Shown here piece after piece: positions 5,220 through 21,913 of a DNA stretch of 43,221 nt. A program made the position numbers and the translations under genes. Position 1 is the first letter of the stretch. Each line of letters opens with the position of its first letter. Below the pieces are notes generated by a model. The model made no database searches. It was not told the origin of the DNA and worked only from the letters and a program-made list of their open reading frames with translations. Source of the stretch: Syntrophobacter sp. SbD2 (GTDB lineage Bacteria; Desulfobacterota; Binatia; UBA9968); assembly GCA_945889495.1 (NCBI GenBank), contig CAMDBU010000029.1, forward strand, positions 1-43,221, written 5' to 3'.

Positions 5220-6209
5220 ATGACATCAAAATTAAAGTTCGGTCTTCTATTGCCCCATTTCGGCGCCCATATGTCGGTGGCGGACTGCCAAGAGGGGGCG
5301 CGGCGCGCCGAGGCCTATGGCTTCGATTCGCTCTGGGTGCGCGATCATCTGGTGTTCACGCCTCATGCTGGCGAAGGTGGCAACGCCAATCATCTGGAAA
5401 GCCTGATGTTGCTAGCGTCGCTCGCGCCGGTGACGAGCAAAATCAAATTCGGCACCGCCATGGCAATTTGCCATCGCCATCCGATTCACCTGGCGCAATC
5501 CTGCGCCGCCTTGAGCGAGATATCCGACGGGCGATTGATCTTGGGGCTGGGCTTGGGCGGCTTCGCCCATGAGTTCGCCGCCGCCGGGCGGCCGAGTTCA
5601 TTGATTGAACGCGTCGAGCTAGCGCGGCTCAATATCGAAATCTGCCGGGCGCTCTGGCGCGGCGAGACGCTCAGCCATCGCAGCGCCTACTTCGACTTCA
5701 AAGATGTCGGGCTGGCGCCGTGGCCGAAAGATAATATTCCGATCTGGATCGGTGGCAGCACGCCGGCCGCCTGCCGGCGCGCCGCGACGCTCGGCGACGG
5801 CTGGATGCCGGCGCGGATCAATTATCCGACGTTTAACAAACGGATCGCTTATCTGCGCGCGCTGTGCGCCGAGGCCGGCCGGCCGATGGTCGAGACCGCT
5901 GTGATGCCGTTCACCAGTATCGCCAAGGATGTCGAGACTGCGCTCCGCGGCATCGACGTGAAGAACTTACTCGACGACGCGCATAACTCGTCGACCTGGG
6001 TGAAACCACCGTCGGGAAAATTCGAGACGCTAGAAGACCTGGGCGGCGTGCTGATCGCCGGCGCGCCCGCCGACATCGTCCGCGAAAGCCAACGCTATGA
6101 AGCCGCCGGCGCCAACCACATCGTCTACGATCTACGCCTGCGTTTCACCGATTGGTACCAGCAGATCGATTTGTTGGGCCGGGAAGTGTTGCCAGCGCTG
6201 CGGGGTTGA
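5220..6209 (+). CDS. LLM-class (luciferase-like) flavin/F420-dependent oxidoreductase
   Basis: This TIM-barrel oxidoreductase of 329 residues belongs to the bacterial luciferase-like family. The N-terminus FGLLLPHFGAHMS is strand 1. The motifs YGFDSLWVRDHLVF, LAPVTSKIKFGTAM, CHRHPIHLAQ and LSEISDGRLILGLGLGG are diagnostic, as is IPIWIGGSTPAACRRAATLGDGW in the second half. Members use F420 or FMN to oxidise or reduce organic substrates. The architecture suggests the F420-type branch, but the cofactor cannot be proved from sequence. It is convergent with the methyltransferase gene, and a long inverted repeat separates them. Confidence 0.92.
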   Translation: MTSKLKFGLLLPHFGAHMSVADCQEGARRAEAYGFDSLWVRDHLVFTPHAGEGGNANHLESLMLLASLAPVTSKIKFGTAMAICHRHPIHLAQSCAALSEISDGRLILGLGLGGFAHEFAAAGRPSSLIERVELARLNIEICRALWRGETLSHRSAYFDFKDVGLAPWPKDNIPIWIGGSTPAACRRAATLGDGWMPARINYPTFNKRIAYLRALCAEAGRPMVETAVMPFTSIAKDVETALRGIDVKNLLDDAHNSSTWVKPPSGKFETLEDLGGVLIAGAPADIVRESQRYEAAGANHIVYDLRLRFTDWYQQIDLLGREVLPALRG

Positions 6210-6212
6210 AGA

Positions 6213-6300
6213 AGTAAGGAGTTAGTAGTGAGGAGTAAGGAGTAAGGAGTTCCGGATGTCCGGCTCCGATCTCCTTACTACTTACTCCTAACTCCTTACT
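6213..6300. repeat. Long inverted repeat of AGTAAGGAGT units
   Basis: The left arm (about 6213-6250) is made of AGTAAGGAGT/TAGTAG units and the right arm (about 6271-6300) is the inverse, CTCCTTACTACTTACTCC and so on. The centre is a small CCGGATGTCCGG palindrome. The RNA would fold into a long hairpin on either strand. It lies between two convergent genes and overlaps the minus-strand gene's stop codon. It may end transcription in both directions, although there is no clear T-run. Confidence 0.75.
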
Positions 6301-7624
6301 ATTTTCTCCCCACTGCGCAGTGAAACGGTTCTGAAACGAAGAATGTTCCATCAGCTTTGCCTCGCTCATAGGCCCCCTGCCATTCCGCCAGTTCCGCTGG
6401 TGTCAGTTGGGCGATGATGCGTTCGCGCAGGTATTCCAATCTTTCGCCGTCTTGGTGACTTGCCCAGCTGGGCAGCGTGACAACATCTAGCAGACCCGCT
6501 TGGTTCATCCGTTGATACAGGCTGGCGTCGGCGCAGCCTTGGGCGGTGACGTTACCGCCGAAGAGGGCGGCGGAATCGACCTTGGCTTTGAGCGGCGCGC
6601 TCAACGGCAAATTCACCCAGCGCGGCAGATCGATGGCGCGGGTGACGCTGCCGACTTTGCCGCCCGGTTTGGTGACCCGGACGAATTCGCCGAGCATGCG
6701 GTCGGCGTCGCCTTCCTCCATCACCGTGCATGAGATCGTGCAGTCGAAACGATTGTCTTCGAAGGGCAGGGCGGTGGCGTCGCCGGGCTGGAAATCGATC
6801 AAGCCGTCGAGCCCGTCGCGTTTAGCCAACGCTTTGGCTTCGGCCATCAGATAGCTATTGACGTCGGCGCCGACGATCGGATTGGCGCCGCGGGTTCGCG
6901 CCGCCAGCCGGCGCACGATGGCGCCGGGACCGCAGCCGACTTCGAGCAGCGATTGACCGGGTTGAAGTTGCAACTCATCAAGCAGCTGATCGATGACCCG
7001 CATGTAGCTCGACTGAGCGCGAGTCTCCAAGTGGGCGACCATGCCGAGATGAGCACCGCCGAGAGTAATCACGCAGAACTTTTGGCTTAACTGCTCGATC
7101 AGCGGCTGCCACTGAGATGGCGACAAGGCCAGCGGCATGAGCAACAACGGCTCGCCGCTGCCGCGGCAAGCGTAAGTGATTCCGGCGCACTGGCCGGATT
7201 GCGACGCGCCATCGGTGACATGCTTGGCTTCGCCGAAACCATTTTGCTCAATAAATCGTCCCATGGCGTCACCGATGCTGTCGAGGCGATCTTGAATGAC
7301 ATCGGCCCAGGGCGGGCTAAAATAGTTCTCCAGAATCACCAATTCTGCGGCCGCGATTTTCTTGCCATCGCGGATTGCTTCGACGCCGCCCCGTCCTTGG
7401 TCGCCGGTGACGATCAGGACTGGCGGTGGATTGGCGCTCAAGGGCGCCAGTTCGATGCCCATGGGGCACATGAGTGTCAGCGACGCGACGGCGTTTTTGT
7501 GCGCGCTGAGCAGACCGACCCAATCCCGCGGCATGCAGGCGGCGAAATGGGCGCGCTCAAGGCCGAGATGGCGCAGCAAGGCGATTAACCGTTCTTCGAG
7601 CGGGCTGTCGGTGGTGATGGTCAT
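6299..7624 (-). CDS. Alpha/beta-hydrolase-like domain fused to SAM methyltransferase
   Basis: The protein has 441 residues in two parts. Residues 222-441 form a class I SAM methyltransferase, with motif I LLEVGCGPGAIVRRLA (226-241), GADVN as the acidic end of strand 2, FQPGDATALPFEDNRFDC, and a VTKPGGKV loop. Residues 1-215 resemble an alpha/beta hydrolase in unusual order: 55-130 looks like a hydrolase C-terminal half (PVLIVTGDQG), while 148-205 looks like an N-terminal half (GEPLLLMPLALSPSQW). No GxSxG nucleophile elbow is visible, so hydrolase activity is doubtful. The start at 7624 is preferred because AGGAG lies upstream; a further in-frame ATG at 7648 lacks such a site. Substrate unknown. 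Confidence 0.8.
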   Translation of the reverse strand: MTITTDSPLEERLIALLRHLGLERAHFAACMPRDWVGLLSAHKNAVASLTLMCPMGIELAPLSANPPPVLIVTGDQGRGGVEAIRDGKKIAAAELVILENYFSPPWADVIQDRLDSIGDAMGRFIEQNGFGEAKHVTDGASQSGQCAGITYACRGSGEPLLLMPLALSPSQWQPLIEQLSQKFCVITLGGAHLGMVAHLETRAQSSYMRVIDQLLDELQLQPGQSLLEVGCGPGAIVRRLAARTRGANPIVGADVNSYLMAEAKALAKRDGLDGLIDFQPGDATALPFEDNRFDCTISCTVMEEGDADRMLGEFVRVTKPGGKVGSVTRAIDLPRWVNLPLSAPLKAKVDSAALFGGNVTAQGCADASLYQRMNQAGLLDVVTLPSWASHQDGERLEYLRERIIAQLTPAELAEWQGAYERGKADGTFFVSEPFHCAVGRK

Positions 7625-7755
7625 GGATCTGTTCTCCTGGTGAGGCAATCGATGAGCTTCTGTTTAACGCGGCGCGCGCATTTATTACAACCATGGGAGC
7701 GGCGTGGTTTTCTCAGCCGGCTATGGTATTGAAGACCGATGCGGAGATCGCCCCC

Positions 7756-8463
7756 ATGAGCAATCCACTCAATATCGGTTTCGTCAGTCCCGGCCCGGCC
7801 ACTTGGCCGCACTATGACGGCTTCATGAAGCTGGTGCCGGACTACGTCAAGTTCGATTTCCAGGGCTTGGGGCTGTTCGACCAGTCGCTGTACGAAATCA
7901 CCGGTAAAAAACAGGAAGTGGTGCGCCGAGTCGGTGAGCTTGCCCAGGAGAAGAATTGGGATGCGGTGATCCTCATCGGCGCACCCACCGAGGTGATGAA
8001 TCCCGGCCTGTACGGCGAACTGAAAGCCGCGCTGCAAATCCCTGTAACCACCGCGCTGACCGCCTCGGTGCATGCGCTGCGTCATTACGGCGCGAAAAGT
8101 TTGCTGTTACTGACGCCCTTCGAGACCCGCTTGAACGGCATGATCGAAAGCTATTTGGTCGACGCCGGTTTTGCCGTGCGCGCGCCGAATTCCTTCGCCA
8201 ACATCGGCGAGGCCGGCAAATTAGGTGGGCAAGCGGTCTACGATCTGACCAAGCAGGCGCTGGCTGAGGTGGGCGCGGTGGACGCGATCTATTTTCAAGG
8301 CGCGGTGCTCGACCCGCTGCCGGTGCTGCAACAAATCGAGAACGATCTCAAAATCACCGCCGTCGCCAGCAACCCGGCTATGCTCTGGGAAATCCTGTCG
8401 CAATTGGGCCGCCGCGCGCCGCTGCCGGGCTACGGCAAACTGCTGGCGGAGTGGCCGAGTTGA
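7756..8463 (+). CDS. Asp/Glu racemase-superfamily (maleate isomerase/AMDase-like) protein
   Basis: The protein has 235 residues with the two-lobed fold pattern of maleate cis-trans isomerase, arylmalonate decarboxylase and related enzymes: NIGFVSPGPATWPHYDGF at the N-terminus, AVILIGAPTEV in lobe 1, TALTASVHALRHYGAKSLLLLTPF (the highly typical linker strand region), and DAIYFQGAVLDPL in lobe 2. The family normally uses two cysteines, one in each lobe, at the positions held here by GAPTEV and QGAVLDPL. Both are missing, so classical racemase chemistry is unlikely. The next binding-protein gene begins about at its stop codon, which suggests a shared transcript. Start ATG 7756 has GGAG nine bases upstream. 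Confidence 0.78.
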   Translation: MSNPLNIGFVSPGPATWPHYDGFMKLVPDYVKFDFQGLGLFDQSLYEITGKKQEVVRRVGELAQEKNWDAVILIGAPTEVMNPGLYGELKAALQIPVTTALTASVHALRHYGAKSLLLLTPFETRLNGMIESYLVDAGFAVRAPNSFANIGEAGKLGGQAVYDLTKQALAEVGAVDAIYFQGAVLDPLPVLQQIENDLKITAVASNPAMLWEILSQLGRRAPLPGYGKLLAEWPS

Positions 8464-8468
8464 ATCCC

Positions 8469-9521
8469 GTGAAGAAAAACTCATATTCACCACGAAAAAC
8501 ACGAAAGGCACCAAAGGGTTGGATAACAACTTTTCCGACCTTCGTGTTGTTCGTGGTTAGCATCCTCTTCCTCCTTCCCCCCGAAAGCACCCATGCACTC
8601 GACAGGATTCGCATCGGCATGGGCGCCCTGAGTCCGACCAATAGCGCTATTTGGGTCGCCGAGGAGCGCGGTTTATTCAAGAAGCATGGCCTCGATGTCG
8701 AGGCGATCTTTATCGGTGGCGGCGCGGCGCGCGGCATCAATGCGCTGCTCGCCGGTGATATCCAGTTCGCCAGCGCCAGCGGCGGGCCGGTGATCAGCTC
8801 CATGCTCAAAGGCAGCGATGTGACCATGATCGCCGCGCTCAACAACAAGGGCGTCCATCGCTTGATGGTCCGGCCCGACATCGACTCGCCGGAACTATTG
8901 AAGGGCAAGCGTATCGCCATCACCGCCTTCGGCACCGCGTCCCACACCGTGCTGACGCTGCTGCTCAACCACTGGAACCTGCGCCAGGAGGATTTAACCG
9001 TCCTGCAGATCGGCTCGTCGCCAACCATGTTGGTGAGCTTGCAGAAAAAGATCGTCGACGGCGCGGTGTTAACCGATCCGTCCTACTTCATCGCCGAGGA
9101 CACCGGCTTCCGGGTGTTGGCCGATCTCGCCAAGATGAACATCCACTATCTGCAAAGCATGCTGGTGTCGACGCGTGGCTATTTGCGCACCAACCGCGAT
9201 CTTTCCACCCGAGTGATGCGCGCCTACGTCGAAGGCATCGCCTACTTCAAGCGCAATAAAAAAGACAGCATCCGCATCATCCTCAAGAAAATGCGCATGG
9301 AAGCGGACAAGGAAAAGTACGCCGAGCGCACCTACGAGCAGTACGCCAACACCTATTTCGACCGCGTGCCCTATCCGTCGTTGAGTGGTATCCGCACCAT
9401 CCTCGATTCCATCGCCAGGGAAGTTCCCAAAGCCAAGGGCGCCGACCCGGCGTCGTTTAGCGATCCGAGTATTCTCAAATCGCTAGAAGACAGCGGCTTC
9501 ATCAAGAGTTTGTACGAGTAG
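8469..9521 (+). CDS. NMT1/TauA-type ABC transporter substrate-binding protein (SBP B)
   Basis: This is a secreted binding protein of about 350 residues. The N-terminus is odd: a basic, polar stretch (KKNSYSPRKTRKAPKG) precedes a hydrophobic core (FPTFVLFVVSILFLLPP), with likely cleavage after STHA near residue 43. This leader lies on an inverted repeat (8489-8557). The mature part is typical: RIRIGMGALSPTNSAIWVAE, RGLFKKHGLDVEAIFIGGG, GINALLAGDIQFA, and LLKGKRIAITAFGT. Possible starts are GTG 8469 and GTG 8451; neither has a strong ribosome site, and coupling to the preceding gene is likely. The ligand is unknown and no permease is nearby. Confidence 0.85.
   Translation: MKKNSYSPRKTRKAPKGWITTFPTFVLFVVSILFLLPPESTHALDRIRIGMGALSPTNSAIWVAEERGLFKKHGLDVEAIFIGGGAARGINALLAGDIQFASASGGPVISSMLKGSDVTMIAALNNKGVHRLMVRPDIDSPELLKGKRIAITAFGTASHTVLTLLLNHWNLRQEDLTVLQIGSSPTMLVSLQKKIVDGAVLTDPSYFIAEDTGFRVLADLAKMNIHYLQSMLVSTRGYLRTNRDLSTRVMRAYVEGIAYFKRNKKDSIRIILKKMRMEADKEKYAERTYEQYANTYFDRVPYPSLSGIRTILDSIAREVPKAKGADPASFSDPSILKSLEDSGFIKSLYE
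8489..8557. repeat. Inverted repeat inside a signal-peptide coding region
   Basis: The left arm is ACCACGAAAAACACGAAAGG (from 8489) and the right arm is CCTTCGTGTTGTTCGTGGT (8539-8557). The inverse of the right arm differs from the left by only two positions. The repeat is translated as part of the leader of SBP B. It belongs with the other CACGAA/CGTGTTCG palindromes, for example 24071-24158. Confidence 0.8.
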
Positions 9522-13747: not shown

Positions 13748-13945
13748 ATGGAAGCGAAGCAGACTGTAAGGGATTTACTCGACCGCTTGCCCGATAATTG
13801 CCGCCTCGATGAAGTTTTGTACCATCTGTATGTACTCCACGAAATCGAGCAAGGGCGCAGTGATGCAAAGGACGGGCGGACCCTGACACACAAACAAGTT
13901 GTCCAAGAGTTACGCAGCAAGTGGCAACAAGGCGTCGCCAAATAG
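13748..13945 (+). CDS. Putative antitoxin partner of the RelE-like toxin
   Basis: The protein has 65 residues and is mostly helical and charged: VRDLLDRLPDNCRLDEVLYHLYVLHEIEQGRSD, cited as residues 7-39, followed by TLTHKQVVQELRSKW. Proteins of this type are usually paired with ParE/RelE toxins. It overlaps the toxin gene by 25 bases, which supports that role. It has no obvious ribbon-helix-helix DNA-binding start, so autorepression is uncertain. Confidence 0.8.
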   Translation: MEAKQTVRDLLDRLPDNCRLDEVLYHLYVLHEIEQGRSDAKDGRTLTHKQVVQELRSKWQQGVAK

Positions 13946-14232
13946 TTTGGACTCGCCGGGCGCGTGACGGTCTTGACGATGCGGTTGGCTACATCGCAAA
14001 GGACTCACCCCAGAGTGCGCTCGAATTGTTAGAGCAAGCGTTGGCGATGGCACAGTCTTTAGAGCGACTGACGGAAAGGGGACGGATGGTACCGGAGCTT
14101 AGAGACTCTTCGGTGCGAGAACTTCTCGTCGGTCGCTATCGTTTGGTTTATGAGGTCACTACATCCCGGGCGGTGGTACTCGGCTTCTTACATGGCGCAC
14201 GTGATTTCAACCGTTGGTGGCGTGGCGAGTAG
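13921..14232 (+). CDS. RelE/ParE-family toxin (second pair)
   Basis: The protein has 103 residues with the ParE/RelE core: RRQIVWTRRARDGLDDAVGYI, DSPQSALELLEQALAMAQSL, an ERGRMVPEL turn, SVRELLVGRYRLVYEV, and VLGFLHGARDFNRWW. The terminal aromatic motif and VxELLxxxYRLxY are typical of ParE-type toxins. It would attack gyrase or mRNA unless bound by the protein encoded just upstream. The start is GTG 13921 inside the antitoxin gene; a shorter start is possible. It is convergent with the DUF35 gene, leaving only eight bases between the two stops. Confidence 0.87.
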   Translation: MATRRRQIVWTRRARDGLDDAVGYIAKDSPQSALELLEQALAMAQSLERLTERGRMVPELRDSSVRELLVGRYRLVYEVTTSRAVVLGFLHGARDFNRWWRGE

Positions 14233-15865: not shown

Positions 15866-15980
15866 GGTCCGTCCAATTGATTTCAGCCGGACCATAGGTC
15901 AGTGCGATTTTGCTTACAAGCGAAAAGTGCACGGCTTGACAGTAACGAGGGCTGCCGGTACCACTGCTGTCTTAAGAATC

Positions 15981-16006
15981 GGACGGATCCGACGGATAGG
16001 ACGGAT
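15981..16006. repeat. GGACGGAT tandem repeat before a start codon
   Basis: Three imperfect GGACGGAT units lie end to end and finish directly before the ATG of SBP D. They form a short direct repeat over the ribosome-binding region. The third unit, AGGACGGAT, supplies the only purine-rich ribosome site, so a change in copy number could alter translation. Confidence 0.55.
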
Positions 16007-16996
16007 ATGACTCATCAACGGAAAACAATTTTAGCTGCCCTCGCACTGCTGCTCTTGCCCGGAACCGCCCAGGCGCAAAAGTTTGTTCAGGCATACTCAT
16101 CGATCAGCGCGCTCAACGCGACCTTTTGGATCATTCAGGATGCCGGCTTCGCCAAGCAGGAGGGGCTCGACACCGAGCTGGTCTACATTCCCAGTTCCTC
16201 GACGGTGGCGCAGGCGACGCTCGCCGGCGAGGTGATGATTTCTCCGGCCAACGGCCAAGTGATCGCCGATGTCGGCCTGCAAGGCGGCGATCTGGTCGCC
16301 ATGGGTGGCATCACCAACGTGGTGGCGTTTTACATCATGGCCACGCCGGAGATCAAAACGATTCAAGACCTCAGGGGGAAAATGGTCGGCGTCACCCGCT
16401 TCGGCTCATCGGGCGATGTCGGCATGCGGATGTTTCTAACCAAGTACGGCTTGGAGCCGGTGAAGGATGTGCCGATGATTCAGTTGGGTGGCCTGCCCGA
16501 GATCGCCTCAGCGATGGGCAAACGCACTGTCCATGCCGCGGCTTTTTCCCAACCGCTGGCCTACGTCGCCCAGCAGGGCGGGGCGCATTTGCTGGCCAAT
16601 CTGTCGAAGGAAAACATTCCGTTTCTCCACGTCGGCGTCACCACCACGCGAAAATTTATCCGCGAGCGGCGCGCCCAGGCCAAAGCTTACCTGCGCGCCT
16701 ATGGCCGCGCGGTGCACTTCATGCACACCCGGAAAGAAGAGAGCAAAGCGATCATCGCCAAATACACCAAGATCAAAGACCAGGGCATGATCGACGGCAG
16801 TTTGACCTACGCCTACGATTTTATCGAGAAGGTGCCGCTGGTCAAGCCGGCGGCGTTTCAAGTCACCCTCGACGACATCGCCAAGAAAAATCCCAAAGCC
16901 AAAGCCGCTAGGCCGGAACAGTTTTTCGACAACAGCTTGGTGCAGGAACTGCTCGACGAAGGTTTCTTCGTCAAGCTCTGGGGCAAAAATCCCTAA
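16007..16996 (+). CDS. NMT1/TauA-type substrate-binding protein (SBP D)
   Basis: This is a secreted binding protein of 329 residues with signal peptide 1-23: HQRK before an ILAALALLLLPG core, with cleavage after AQA. It belongs to a tight subgroup with SBP E and F. Shared landmarks are SxxSAxNxxFWIxxxxGF, AKQEGLD, ATLAGE, SPANGQVIADVGLQGGDLVA, TPEIKTIQDLRGKMVGVTRF and FFDNSLVQELLDEGFFVKLW at the C-terminus. Such strong similarity points to local gene duplication. The large minus-strand STAND gene now lies between D and its relatives. Start ATG 16007 gives a normal leader; longer frames upstream contain no signal peptide. Confidence 0.9.
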   Translation: MTHQRKTILAALALLLLPGTAQAQKFVQAYSSISALNATFWIIQDAGFAKQEGLDTELVYIPSSSTVAQATLAGEVMISPANGQVIADVGLQGGDLVAMGGITNVVAFYIMATPEIKTIQDLRGKMVGVTRFGSSGDVGMRMFLTKYGLEPVKDVPMIQLGGLPEIASAMGKRTVHAAAFSQPLAYVAQQGGAHLLANLSKENIPFLHVGVTTTRKFIRERRAQAKAYLRAYGRAVHFMHTRKEESKAIIAKYTKIKDQGMIDGSLTYAYDFIEKVPLVKPAAFQVTLDDIAKKNPKAKAARPEQFFDNSLVQELLDEGFFVKLWGKNP

Positions 16997-17006
16997 GACC
17001 TGTCGA

Positions 17007-20000
17007 CTACTGCGGCTGGCGCAGCATGCGCGCGGCGCCGTCGACTGGCACCTTCAACGGACTGCCGGCGCCGTCATGAAAAATCATCAGCTCGGCGTCA
17101 TGGCCGCCGTTGCTATCGGGGGTAAAGCGCAACCGCAGGACGCAGGGCGCTCCGCCCGGTTTGATCCTCGCCGGACACTGATTGAGTAGGGCAAAGCTCG
17201 CTTTGCCGCGCAGCTCCGCCCGGCTGATCAGCAAATCGGTGCTGCCCTGGTTATCGACGGTCACTTCGAGCGTGCGGTTGCTGCCGAGCGCTAGCTCCGG
17301 GAAGTTAAGCTGGGCGGGTGTGGCCGCGGCCACCGGCTTTTGCACCCTCACCGCCGATCCTTTGACGAGCACTTCGCGGCTGCCGTTGCTTGGCGCTATG
17401 ACGCGCAGGAGCGCCCGGTGGCTGGCCACCGCCTTGGGCGTGTAGCGCAAAATAATATTACAAGTGGCGGCGCCGGCGAGATTGTCGCCGCAGTTATTAC
17501 CGACGATGGCGAACTGGCGCGCGTCGGCGCCGTCGATCTCCACTCGATCGAGGCGTAGGTTGGCGCTACCGCCATTGCGAATCACCAGCCGCTGCAACAA
17601 CGGCGGCGAGTCGATCGCTTGGTCGGAAAACTCCACCGGATCGGGCAGCATTTCGATGGCACTGCCGGCCGGCTTGCCCGAGCCGTAGAGGAGCGCCCGC
17701 GTCGGTTCTCGTCCAGTAGCGTCGGTGATCACAAGCGCCGCTTCCCGGCTTCCCGCGGCGACCGGCGCGAAGGTAATCGCTAGGCGGCAGGTTTTCCCCT
17801 CGGCGGAGATACCGCCTTGGCAATCGTTCTGGGCGATGGTGAAATCGCGTTGGGCACCACCTTCGATGGCGATGGCGGCGATATCGGCGGCCCGGCCCTG
17901 GTGTTGGATGAGTAAATTCTTGGTTAACCTCTGGCCGACATCGACGGCGCCAAATCCCAGGCTCGCTGGATGAACGCTCAACGCATTTGACGCCACCTCG
18001 ACACCGTTGCCGCGCAGGGTCAACTCCGTGCTGGCACCGTCGGCCAGGGTCATGCTCAACATAGCGCTGCGCGCTCCGGCGCCGCTCGGTTTAAACAGAA
18101 TCGCGATGGTACAGCTGAGGCGCTGGGGAATTTCCCGATCGCGGCAGTCGCTTTCGCCGGCGGAAAAATCCTGCCGCTGGGCGCCGCTGATGGTGATTTG
18201 ACCAACCCGTAACGCGGCAACCCCAGTGTTGGTCAAAGTGAGCGCCGCGGCGATGGTGCTGCCGATGGGCCGCGCGCCGAGATCGAACTGCTCCGGGGTC
18301 AAGGTAAAATCTTCGCTGCGCTGTGCCACCCGGGCGTCGCGCCGGCCGCGCAACGCGATCTGGGCGATGGGTTCGCGCCGGCCGTCGCTGAGACTCAAGG
18401 CCGCCACTCGCGCGCCCTCAACGGTGGGCGTAAACATGACGCGGATCTGGCAATCGCCGCCCACCGCCAACGTCTTGTCGGCGCAGCCATTAACCTGGAT
18501 AAAATAATCTTCCCGGGCCGCGCCGGTCACGGCGGCGGCGCCAAACTTCAGCGGTGCGCTGCCAACATTGGCCACGGTCACCGATTGCGCCAGCGCCGGA
18601 ATGTGGAGTGCGACGCTACGAAACTCCAATTGGTTGGGCGAGAAGCTGAGGAGCGCGGGCGGCGGTGGCGCCGGCGGTTCTTGCCATGCCACCAGCGCAA
18701 TGAGCAGGCAGAGTAGCGCCAGGATGGAACCTTTCAGCGGCAGCGGCAATGCCGCTAGTCGCGACCAAAAGGCTCGGGCATAACTCGGAGTGGCGATTTC
18801 CTCTGGCGCGGTGGTGGCGTCGCGCGACGCCAGGCGGTCCAGCAGGTCTAAATTGTGCTGGGTCACGGCGGCGCCCCAGTGATCGCCACGGGCGCAACGG
18901 CGATTGAGCGCCAGGGCCAAGCGCTCGCGGGCCAATGCGCCATCGCCCAGACATAAGGCCCGGCTACCCAGTTGATGGATGAACCATTCGGCCGCCACCG
19001 GATCGCCGCTCAGTTCCGCGGCGCGCTGGCCGAGCTCAAGATTGTGTTGCCAGGCACCCCAGCGTTTGCTCAAGCAGAGCATCGGGTCCATGGCGCGCGC
19101 CAAGCGCAATACTTGCGGCCAGCGCTCTTGACCGACGGCCCAGTCGAGCGCCAGCTCGATCAACTCCGGCGCGGCGGCGCTGGCCGATTCGGCGGCGGCA
19201 ATAAAATATTCGAGTAAATTTTCTTTGAGCGTCGTCAGTTCGCCAACCGGCGCCGCGCCCTCGCGGCAATTGGCCGGCACCAGATAGTCGCCAGAAAGAC
19301 TTTCGATCAGGCGCGCGCTTTCGAGGGTGACTAGCGCCTCATCTAGTTGCGGATCGTTGATTAGCGCGATCAAGGTTGATTTTGCGATAGGTGCGCCGGC
19401 GGCGATCAGTAGCGCGACAATCTTGCGCTCAAGGGCGCCGCAGGCTTGGATGACTTGAGCGGCGCCAATCTCCTCGGTCGGCAGTTGGGCGACATATTCG
19501 ATGAGCGGGCTTTGCCGTTGGCGCAGCTGCGCCATGATTTGCCGGATCAAGCCGGGATTGCGGCCCAGCCGCAGGGCCAGATGTTTGGCCGCCGCCTGTT
19601 CGGCTTCGCTCAAGCTGGCGCCATATTCGCGCTCGATGAGCGCCACCGCGTCGTCCATCGGCAAACCGCGCAGGTAGAGCGGCGTCTCGTCCATGCGCAT
19701 GCGGCCGCTCGTAGTGATAACGATCGCGCAGTTGCTGAGCACATCGGATAAAGGCTTGAGCTCGGCATCGGCCAGGGCGACGTCATCAAGCAGAATCAGC
19801 GCCTTGAGCTCGCCCAGCCGTTGTCGCGTCGCGCCGTCGTTGAGGTTACAAACCTGGCCACCGTCATAGAAAGCCGCGAAGCAATCTTGCAGCAGATCGG
19901 CCACCGGCTGATGACCGACCCGTTGGCGGTAAATTATTCCATCGGGCAAGTTTTTTAATTGCGGCTGATCGGCCAGGTAGCGCATTAGAGCGCTCTTGCC

Positions 20001-20714
20001 GGTGCCGGCGGCGCCGGTGATTTCCAATCTACGGGAGTGAGCCAACGCCGCCAGGGCGTCGGCGGTTTCGCCTTCGCGATCGATCAGGGGCGGGGTTGGC
20101 GACCAGTTCTCTTGCCGCGGCAATCGTCGCACCGGCCCATCGATCTGGGCACTTTCGACCACCGCGCCATGGGCGCGGCTGACGCTGAGGCGGTAACCAT
20201 TGTCAGAGTCGGCTGGGATCAAGAGCTGGCTCGCCGGGTCACTAGCGATGGCGGGACGCAAGTGGCGGTCGAACAGCCAGCGGTGAATATCCGCCGTGAT
20301 CAGCTCGCACAGTTGCTCGCCGTCTTTGAACAGCCCGGGCCGCTGCTGGCGCCGCAACTCGGTTTTGAAAGCCAGCAATTTGCGCAACGCCGCGGCGTTT
20401 TGCTCGCCCAACTGGAGGACGTTTTCATCTTTTAAATAGATCAAACACTCGACGCCACGCGCGCGGGCATGGCGATACTGCGCCTCCACCGCGCCGGAAC
20501 TGTAGCGTCCGGCAATGATGCCGACATAAAGCTCGCAGCCGGCGATTTGACTGAACAGCTGCTCGCCATCGGACTCGCTGGAATTGCCGAAATAGTCCCG
20601 GCCAAGAATGGCGGCCTGGCGCAGACGCTGGAACAGCTCGGCTACGGCTTTGCGCTCGGATTGGAGATCGTACTGAGTCGAGCTGACGAAGATCGCGGCG
20701 ATGGGCGGTGACAT
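17007..20714 (-). CDS. DUF4062/STAND-type ATPase with TM segment and Hydin-like Ig repeats
   Basis: This is a multidomain protein of about 1235 residues. Residues 4-85 are DUF4062 (IAAIFVSSTQYDLQSERKAV), a domain common in NLR-like signalling proteins. Residues 210-480 hold a STAND/NB-ARC-type ATPase with Walker A GAAGTGKS (234-241) and Walker B ALILLDDV (305-312), followed by helical repeats (about 500-625). A membrane segment lies at about 662-677 (SILALLCLLIALVAW). Beyond it are five ASPM/SPD-2/Hydin-like Ig repeats of about 100 residues, each with a pair of cysteines about 11 apart (near 744/755, 857/868, 965/976, 1075/1085, 1180/1191). The likely topology is N-terminal domains inside and repeats outside. 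ATG 20714 is preferred over TTG 20729. The role, perhaps stress or defence signalling, is inferred. Confidence 0.85.
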   Translation of the reverse strand: MSPPIAAIFVSSTQYDLQSERKAVAELFQRLRQAAILGRDYFGNSSESDGEQLFSQIAGCELYVGIIAGRYSSGAVEAQYRHARARGVECLIYLKDENVLQLGEQNAAALRKLLAFKTELRRQQRPGLFKDGEQLCELITADIHRWLFDRHLRPAIASDPASQLLIPADSDNGYRLSVSRAHGAVVESAQIDGPVRRLPRQENWSPTPPLIDREGETADALAALAHSRRLEITGAAGTGKSALMRYLADQPQLKNLPDGIIYRQRVGHQPVADLLQDCFAAFYDGGQVCNLNDGATRQRLGELKALILLDDVALADAELKPLSDVLSNCAIVITTSGRMRMDETPLYLRGLPMDDAVALIEREYGASLSEAEQAAAKHLALRLGRNPGLIRQIMAQLRQRQSPLIEYVAQLPTEEIGAAQVIQACGALERKIVALLIAAGAPIAKSTLIALINDPQLDEALVTLESARLIESLSGDYLVPANCREGAAPVGELTTLKENLLEYFIAAAESASAAAPELIELALDWAVGQERWPQVLRLARAMDPMLCLSKRWGAWQHNLELGQRAAELSGDPVAAEWFIHQLGSRALCLGDGALARERLALALNRRCARGDHWGAAVTQHNLDLLDRLASRDATTAPEEIATPSYARAFWSRLAALPLPLKGSILALLCLLIALVAWQEPPAPPPPALLSFSPNQLEFRSVALHIPALAQSVTVANVGSAPLKFGAAAVTGAAREDYFIQVNGCADKTLAVGGDCQIRVMFTPTVEGARVAALSLSDGRREPIAQIALRGRRDARVAQRSEDFTLTPEQFDLGARPIGSTIAAALTLTNTGVAALRVGQITISGAQRQDFSAGESDCRDREIPQRLSCTIAILFKPSGAGARSAMLSMTLADGASTELTLRGNGVEVASNALSVHPASLGFGAVDVGQRLTKNLLIQHQGRAADIAAIAIEGGAQRDFTIAQNDCQGGISAEGKTCRLAITFAPVAAGSREAALVITDATGREPTRALLYGSGKPAGSAIEMLPDPVEFSDQAIDSPPLLQRLVIRNGGSANLRLDRVEIDGADARQFAIVGNNCGDNLAGAATCNIILRYTPKAVASHRALLRVIAPSNGSREVLVKGSAVRVQKPVAAATPAQLNFPELALGSNRTLEVTVDNQGSTDLLISRAELRGKASFALLNQCPARIKPGGAPCVLRLRFTPDSNGGHDAELMIFHDGAGSPLKVPVDGAARMLRQPQ

Positions 20715-20905
20715 GGTTAGATCGGGCAATGGTCAGACAACCGGGGTGAGTATCGCCAACTGAATTGCCAATGTCCAGCCGATTCACAATTTCGAATCGA
20801 AGGGCGCTCAATTGCGCCCTTCGGTTGACCGCTCTCGCGCTGCGGTGATACCTTCTGGCGGTCGTTGCAGCCAGCGGCCGCGGCGCTAACTTGAGGGACA
20901 ATTTG

Positions 20906-21913
20906 ATGAGCGATGCTAAATTTCTAATTCGACTATCGATGCTGATGCTCGCCTTGGCGGTGAGTCATTTCAACAGCGGCCCGGCCCATGGGCAAAAGCT
21001 AGTGATCGCTTGGACCTCGGTGAGCGCGTTCAATTCACCGTTCTGGATCATGCCCGAGGTGGGTTTTTACAAGCAAGAAGGTCTCGATGTCGATACCATC
21101 TTTATTTTGAGCTCGCCGACGGCGGCCAAGGCGACCCTGGCCGGCGATATCTCGATCAGCGCCCAGAACAGCCAGGTGGTCGCCGACTCGGGCTTGGCCG
21201 GCGGCGATCTGGTCTCCATGGGCGCGGTGGTGAATATTGTTCCCTTCTACATGATGGCAACGCCGGAGATCAAAACCATCGGCGATCTCAGGGGTAAATC
21301 GGTGGGTATCTCGCGCTTCGGCGCGGCCTCGGACTTCGGCACGCGAATGTTTCTCGCCAAGCATGGGCTCGAAGCCAACAAAGATGTCGCCTTCGTGCAG
21401 ATCGGCGGCCAGCCGGAAATCGCCGTCGCGCTGTCGAAAAAACTGATCGCCGCGGCGGCCATGTCCCAGCCCATGGCGGCGGTGGCCGAGCAGCAGGGCG
21501 CCCGGCTGCTCGCCAACATGGTCAAGGATGAAATTCCCTTCGTCCACTTGAGCCTCACCAGCACCAAGCGCTTTATCAAGGAGCACCGCGCCCAGGCCAA
21601 AGCGTTTCTGCGCGCCTACGGCCGGTCCATGCACTTTCTCTACAACCGCCGGGAAGACACGCTGAAGATTTTCCAAAAATACACCAAAGTCCAGGACCCA
21701 AAAATCCTGGAGGCGACCCTCAAGTACGGCTACGAGTTCATGGAAAAAGTCCCCTTCGTCAAGCCGGCGGGATTCCAAGTGACTCTCGATGAAATCGCGC
21801 GCAACAATCCTAAAGCCAAGGGCGCCAAGCCGGCGCAGTTCTACGACAACAGTTTGGTGCAAGAATTAGTCGACGAAGGTTTCTTCACCAAACTCTGGGG
21901 GCGCGCACCATGA
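20906..21913 (+). CDS. NMT1/TauA-type substrate-binding protein (SBP E)
   Basis: This is a secreted protein of 335 residues. A signal peptide covers about residues 1-29: FLIRLSMLMLALAVS, with cleavage near AHG before QKLVIAW. It aligns along its whole length with SBP F, sharing SVSAFNSPFWIM, KQEGLDVD, LSSPTxAKATLAGD, DLRGKSVGISRFGAASDFG, KHGLEANKDVAFVQIGG and a LVDEGFFTKLWG end. The two genes overlap by four bases (ATGA), so they are translated from one message. GAGGGA upstream supports ATG 20906 over TTG 20891. Near-duplicate binding proteins in one operon may serve different ligands of one chemical class, but no ligand is evident. Confidence 0.9.
   Translation: MSDAKFLIRLSMLMLALAVSHFNSGPAHGQKLVIAWTSVSAFNSPFWIMPEVGFYKQEGLDVDTIFILSSPTAAKATLAGDISISAQNSQVVADSGLAGGDLVSMGAVVNIVPFYMMATPEIKTIGDLRGKSVGISRFGAASDFGTRMFLAKHGLEANKDVAFVQIGGQPEIAVALSKKLIAAAAMSQPMAAVAEQQGARLLANMVKDEIPFVHLSLTSTKRFIKEHRAQAKAFLRAYGRSMHFLYNRREDTLKIFQKYTKVQDPKILEATLKYGYEFMEKVPFVKPAGFQVTLDEIARNNPKAKGAKPAQFYDNSLVQELVDEGFFTKLWGRAP

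Follow-up and report, generated by a model that had tools for sequence, protein, structure and literature searches.

Does a bacterial gene join an NLR-type switch to a sensor array outside the cell? This question is raised by a gene at positions 17007 to 20714 (reverse strand) of contig CAMDBU010000029.1 of Syntrophobacter sp. SbD2, the whole 43,221-nucleotide stretch being the window analyzed here. Its product, hereafter the receptor, is likely to be a STAND (NLR-like) receptor that crosses the membrane once, with an Ig array on the outside, a cytosolic TPR/NB-ARC switch and a probably non-catalytic DUF4062 domain, and to have been acquired as a single gene.

Domain anatomy of the receptor

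The features of the gene, all on the reverse strand, are as follows:

17007..20714, reverse strand: whole gene, 1235 aa (ATG at 20714, stop at 17007; TTG at 20729 as alternative start)
20250..20714, reverse strand: DUF4062, TIR-like domain, residues 1-155 (Pfam PF13271, E=4e-11; KpSwz and TEP1 recovered by profile)
20478..20480, reverse strand: codon CAG of Gln79 at the position of the catalytic Glu (by alignment)
19425..20117, reverse strand: NB-ARC-type STAND core, residues ~200-430 (by fold, NRC4 Z 16.6 and APAF-1 Z 15.7, and as family core; Walker B LILLDD at 306-311)
19992..20015, reverse strand: Walker A GAAGTGKS, residues 234-241 (by sequence)
18795..19232, reverse strand: TPR-like helical region, residues ~495-640 (common to the Acidimicrobiaceae, Chloroflexi and Streptomyces relatives; helical in the model)
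18678..18743, reverse strand: predicted transmembrane helix, residues ~658-679, followed by PPAPPPP (hydropathy 2.36; helical in the models)
18309..18656, reverse strand: ASH/choice-of-anchor-D Ig repeat 1, Cys 744/755 (profile matches)
17985..18308, reverse strand: ASH Ig repeat 2, Cys 857/868 (profile matches)
17658..17984, reverse strand: ASH Ig repeat 3, Cys 965/976 (profile matches)
17334..17657, reverse strand: ASH Ig repeat 4, Cys 1075/1085 (profile matches)
17010..17333, reverse strand: ASH Ig repeat 5, Cys 1180/1191 (profile matches)

The frame is unbroken over its 1,235 residues, and an in-frame TTG 15 nt 5' of the ATG is the other possible start. From the amino to the carboxy terminus the order is DUF4062, NB-ARC-type STAND, TPR-like helices, transmembrane helix, a proline-rich join and five ASH repeats. 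The DUF4062 match lies above the cut-off of PF13271, and the ASH array is matched over five stretches by choice_anch_D (NF012200, E=7e-77) and by the HYDIN/VesB Ig profile (PF22544, E=1e-25). In sequence the NB-ARC match is weak (E=0.1), whereas in fold it is clear: the model that AlphaFold gives for residues 1-691 (mean pLDDT, the predicted local distance difference test score, of 60; shallow alignment) resembles NRC4, APAF-1, CED-4 and the TIR-NLR RPP1 in VIA-align comparisons. The model of the carboxy-terminal part (pLDDT 81) consists of five beta-sandwiches that match SPD-2 of CEP192, HYDIN and the secreted protease VesB. By its predicted fold, then, the receptor is a STAND ATPase, and by profile it is a member of the ASH family. 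No clear His-Asp of an MHD-type winged-helix motif is visible by eye, the model at 412-500 being under pLDDT 50, and the PADLOC system models give only weak P-loop matches to the protein (best E 2e-4).

A first-pass annotation of this locus had given the same coordinates, strand and sequence of DUF4062, STAND and five Hydin-like Ig repeats, and the Pfam and NF profiles and the folds bear it out. Its remark that each repeat carries two cysteines about 11 residues apart also agrees with the spacings in repeats 1-5, which are 11, 11, 11, 10 and 11. It was fair in holding that the usual carboxy-terminal part of STAND proteins is a set of cytosolic sensor repeats, and the receptor too retains TPR-like repeats, which lie between the NB-ARC domain and the membrane. 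These helices, the Glu-to-Gln change in DUF4062 and the commonplace nature of the Cys pair in the Ig family were overlooked.

A family of STAND-TPR-membrane relatives

The receptor belongs to a small set of remotely related proteins with a common core. A whole-protein tblastn search of plasmids identified a protein of Streptomyces sp. NBC_00564 (WP_332880965.1), annotated only as a choice-of-anchor D protein, that aligns with residues 175-786 of the receptor, from the NB-ARC domain through the helices and membrane segment into the ASH region (E=3e-29). A two-row profile of the region common to these two proteins was then searched in 45 genomes with DUF4062 loci or other matches, and it found a 956-aa protein in a Chloroflexi metagenome-assembled genome (MAG; contig L248) and a 796-aa protein in an Acidimicrobiaceae MAG (L249:2083-4470, reverse strand). 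With its ends removed, the core of the receptor scores between 84 and 114 bits (84, 107 and 114) against these three proteins, the maximum over 50 shuffles of the core being 23-26 bits. A fifth member, on a Streptomyces europaeiscabiei plasmid (L271), was left out of profile building and is recovered by the four-member profile at 174 bits (E 3e-55), whereas the remaining STAND proteins compared score at most 88 bits. Single-protein scans of genome and viral contigs, and tblastn of plasmids with the amino-terminal part, returned no relatives.

What these members conserve is the middle of the chain. The TPR-like helices are common to the relatives, which have TPR_12 matches, and carry a family signature (RWxxW...GD...HQxG...AR..L..A...R...GD). 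In all five members a hydrophobic helix directly follows the core (19-residue hydropathy 1.9-3.0) and is itself followed by an ectodomain; the receptor's own helix, at ~658-679, has a Kyte-Doolittle value of 2.36 and is helical in both AlphaFold models. The membrane call is thus made from hydropathy together with conservation in homologues, and the lack of a helix, by which the first-pass annotation said its membrane reading could be overturned, was not what we found. That annotation had also named homologues split into two genes as a point against it. This holds in part: three of the five members do lack a fused DUF4062, but the STAND-membrane-ectodomain part is unsplit in every one.

The ends, by comparison, are variable. 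The five ectodomains comprise, in turn, five ASH repeats in the receptor, one ASH and a CARDB domain in NBC_00564, a long Thr/Pro/Ser stalk and then three Ig/FN3-like repeats in Chloroflexi, one short ASH-like domain in Acidimicrobiaceae and a Cys-rich region in S. europaeiscabiei; a Pro/Ser/Thr-rich stalk follows the helix in the NBC_00564 and Chloroflexi members. The ectodomain cysteines are paired in the four members other than S. europaeiscabiei, and of the only three Cys among the 796 residues of the Acidimicrobiaceae protein, two form an ectodomain pair 11 apart. At the inner end the members have either DUF4062, a segment of GD repeats or a short tail, and besides the receptor only the Acidimicrobiaceae member carries DUF4062 (E 6e-8).

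The receptor is therefore not a one-off fusion, and it is most likely one of a sparsely distributed family whose core is fixed and whose ends can be exchanged. The broader proposal, on which the balance is about even, is of an undescribed bacterial family of transmembrane NLR-like receptors in which a constant STAND-TPR-membrane core is combined with exchangeable ectodomains in the envelope (ASH, CARDB, Ig/FN3-like, Cys-rich) and exchangeable inner modules (active or inactive DUF4062, GD-repeat, none), is moved between phyla by gene transfer, and lets the cell respond to an external signal by way of an NLR-type switch. In a literature search that left most subscription journals outside it, no transmembrane STAND receptors with Ig ectodomains were found, and the nearest entries were variable, membrane-linked components of other conflict systems.

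Some neighbors and termini of these relatives are worth recording. On the NBC_00564 plasmid, a gene for a 350-aa protein without a Pfam match (L217:6814-7866) overlaps the start of the homologue by one base and is a candidate partner or effector; a hidden DUF4062 in the open frame upstream of the Streptomyces homologue was checked and rejected. In Chloroflexi, two adjacent genes just after dnaA (L248:5156-5692 and 5708-8575) both begin with a similar Gly/Asp/Asn-rich repeat (GDNNVQIG, GDVHGSIVSGDGN), which possibly acts as a homotypic adaptor between an upstream protein and the STAND receptor. A repeat of this kind also stands at the amino terminus of the S. europaeiscabiei member.

The DUF4062 domain and its Glu-to-Gln change

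DUF4062 has been shown to be a TIR-like NADase, with the catalytic Glu at E97 in KpSwz and E1008 in TEP1 (2026 preprint, PMC13174449). Bacterial members (Swarozyc) defend against phage by NAD+ destruction, and bacterial DUF4062 genes are not all inside defence islands; the E97A and E1008A forms are inactive, loss of R976 in TEP1 reduces activity, and no NADase activity was seen for NWD1, NWD2 and NPHP3 (PMC13174449). Our numbering is anchored on PDB chains 10wc and 11gz through E97A, D71, R908 and R976. For KpSwz the deposited chain, that of the E97A mutant, has FTEKAFDYA at this site, and with KpSwz D71 and TEP1 R908 and R976 as anchors the catalytic Glu falls on the second acidic position of a T-E-x-E-Y motif.

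In the receptor this motif reads AVEAQYRHA, so that the catalytic position is Gln79. Among 95 aligned DUF4062 domains, a set with a few duplicates between collections and gathered with search motifs that excluded the catalytic column, this column holds Glu in 93, Gln in the receptor only and a gap in one broken gene. As a query, an eight-domain DUF4062 alignment was too diverse and a four-row alignment worked; the family profile finds KpSwz at E 9e-31. The nearest relatives of the receptor's domain, two Acidobacteria proteins with 42% and 38% identity and the same short loop, keep the Glu (ITEAEYRRA and ITEDEYRRA), as does the Acidimicrobiaceae relative of the same architecture. Both Acidobacteria relatives end at contig edges, and neither genome shows a significant ASH match or STAND-membrane-ASH continuation; in the remaining DUF4062 proteins fetched by the four-row scan, no ASH domain is detectable.

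Because Gln79 occupies the NADase Glu position, catalysis by the receptor's DUF4062 has probably been lost, unless the MAG base is wrong; the ancestral domain, from the same alignment, was very probably active. This divides the first-pass proposal of a membrane NLR-like sensor that fires a DUF4062 effector: the membrane-receptor half is supported by the five members, and the effector half is unsupported in this copy since its catalytic position is Gln79, though firing may hold for the Acidimicrobiaceae relative. It is unlikely that the receptor is nevertheless an active membrane NADase, with an ectodomain that senses phage or a neighbor at the envelope and a DUF4062 that depletes NAD+ despite Gln79 or whose true allele is Glu. 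The domain is a NADase in KpSwz and TEP1 (PMC13174449), Arg70 (the equivalent of TEP1 R976) is kept and CAG is one base from GAG, all of which speaks in its favor, but the E97A and E1008A mutants are inactive (PMC13174449), Gln79 is unique among 94 domains and the gene has no defence neighbors.

Two short DUF4062 proteins in Acidobacteria MAGs (L047 and L092) have a hydrophobic helix after the domain and an intact catalytic Glu. DUF4062 domains tethered to a membrane may extend beyond the receptor family.

Genomic setting and origin

The receptor gene lies between two paralogous genes and is opposite in direction to both:

15902..16996, forward strand: left flank, NMT1/THI5-like substrate-binding protein gene (its counterpart overlaps the next such gene in G001)
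20891..21913, forward strand: right flank, paralogous NMT1/THI5-like substrate-binding protein gene (same comparison)

In a genome of the same genus (G001), the counterparts of both flank genes (83% and 74% identity) lie on one contig without an insert and share a 19-base overlap. Searches of the rest of the 25-genome family gave no DUF4062-STAND relative and no ASH match, and within its own genome the receptor gene is the only DUF4062-STAND and the only ASH copy found. Most simply read, this one gene was inserted on its own between two genes for transporters. Since the signal of transfer from guanine-plus-cytosine content is weak, the value at third codon positions being equal to that of the neighbors, transfer rests on the empty site and the patchy presence.

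The same observations bear on the idea of a decaying foreign gene that was inactivated after its acquisition and shows Gln79 as its earliest visible lesion. Sporadic presence, the empty site in G001 and the single catalytic substitution are what decay would leave, but 1,235 open codons, Cys pairs in all five Ig repeats and an intact Walker A are not, and we regard this origin as quite unlikely.

The first-pass annotation had suggested a survey of homologues for defence islands, and none is present in the neighborhood of the receptor itself, where the neighbors are transporters, a thiolase, an ornithine cyclodeaminase and an amidohydrolase. About 2.8 kb from the receptor gene, the window encodes a ParE-like toxin (13921-14232, forward strand; PF05016, E 1e-13). 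Between 432 and 35405 it contains many genes for substrate-binding proteins of the NMT1/THI5-like or phosphonate type, several of them arranged in tandem, which adjoin ornithine cyclodeaminase and amidohydrolase genes and have no obvious permease partners in the annotated set. Near the empty site of G001 there is a CRISPR array (L139:4100-4677) of about ten repeats with a 29-nt repeat (CGGTTCATCCCCGCGCGTGCGGGGAACAC) and a 61-nt period; the open frame there is false.

The ectodomain and a proposed mechanism

Because the helix and then an ectodomain are kept in all five members and the cysteines are paired, we infer with good support that the ectodomain is exported. We infer also the orientation, the disulfides, oligomerization, the direction of signaling and the loss of catalysis. 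After the transmembrane helix the receptor has no Cys beyond the five pairs. The Cys pair is, however, usual for the ASH Ig family, being present in 84 of 98 ASH domains of class-mates, and the spacing as a special mark of the receptor was dropped, as most class-mate ASH domains share it.

In the proposed mechanism of the membrane STAND receptor, the five Ig repeats, with one disulfide each, would lie outside the cytoplasmic membrane and read or hold an envelope component. The single helix would relay binding or clustering to the cytosolic TPR/NB-ARC switch, which would oligomerize and bring the amino-terminal modules together; the inner DUF4062 would here probably serve, without catalysis, as a TIR-like domain for assembly or nucleotide binding. 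STAND proteins and DUF4062 usually have an immune (antiphage) purpose, which is a candidate role here.

Several observations count against this mechanism. The charge bias around the receptor's helix is weak (two K/R and two D/E upstream), and only in NBC_00564, with positive residues before the helix and acidic ones after it, is the bias clear. Confidence is low in the helical half of the model, Gln79 depends on one MAG base, and the family has five members only, three of them known by one sequence each (MAGs or plasmids). Some members have a degenerate Walker A or Walker B, and the Acidimicrobiaceae ectodomain is not significant to the ASH profile built from the receptor's repeats.

The array could alternatively belong to a surface adhesion or scaffold protein, in which it anchors the envelope or a partner, the STAND part regulates assembly and there is no immune role. 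Class-mate ASH arrays do occur in proteins that are large and apparently secreted, several of which have a signal-like helix at the amino terminus, and VesB and further extracellular proteins have the same fold; yet the retained NB-ARC/TPR core, the TIR-like domain and the swapping of inner modules are left unexplained, which makes this role improbable. It is very improbable that the helix stays out of the membrane and the entire protein resides in the cytosol, its ASH domains being ordinary carboxy-terminal sensor repeats, like the cytosolic eukaryotic arrays of Hydin and CEP192 and in line with the weak charge bias, given the hydropathy at the same place in all five members, the occurrence of the receptor's ectodomain Cys only as pairs, and stalks typical of exported regions.

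Comparison with known systems

To our knowledge, those STAND sensors of bacteria that have been studied recognize invaders in the cytosol. The membrane STAND receptor, if correctly read, would be an envelope-facing NLR that could react before or during entry, or to contact or envelope stress, and would join two animal immune designs, the Toll-like membrane receptor and the NLR switch, in one chain. The Glu-to-Gln copy would also provide a natural case of DUF4062 without the NADase residue.

KpSwz shares the Pfam family of its amino-terminal DUF4062 with the receptor but lacks the STAND core, membrane helix and Ig array, and has a portal-binding helix-turn-helix (HTH)/winged domain and Glu97, which is Gln in the receptor. 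By profiles and folds, the carboxy-terminal part of the receptor is STAND-TPR-membrane-ASH, without a Swarozyc-type portal-binding HTH/winged auxiliary domain; on sequence it is not a Swarozyc system, and it lacks the catalytic residue of DUF4062 NADases. The animal proteins TEP1, NWD1 and NPHP3 likewise have DUF4062 beside a STAND ATPase and carboxy-terminal repeats, but they are cytosolic, have NACHT and not NB-ARC-like domains and lack a membrane helix, and TEP1 keeps Glu1008. In Avs, bNACHT and APAF-1/plant NLRs, as in the receptor, an NB-ARC/STAND switch lies between an amino-terminal module and carboxy-terminal repeats; the known bacterial STAND defence proteins are cytosolic sensors, whereas the receptor adds a predicted membrane helix and probably exported Ig domains after the repeats. 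Toll/IL-1 receptors, with an exported Ig or repeat ectodomain, one membrane helix and a TIR-like cytosolic domain, are offered as an analogy only, since the chain runs in the opposite direction, the receptor has a STAND ATPase in between and homology is not claimed.

Closest to the receptor are two of its own relatives. The NBC_00564 protein keeps the STAND-TPR-membrane-ASH order over ~610 residues but has no DUF4062 and carries one ASH with CARDB, while the Acidimicrobiaceae protein has the full order including DUF4062 and a Cys-paired ectodomain, and differs in its one short ASH-like ectodomain, its catalytic Glu and a Walker A that ends in Lys.

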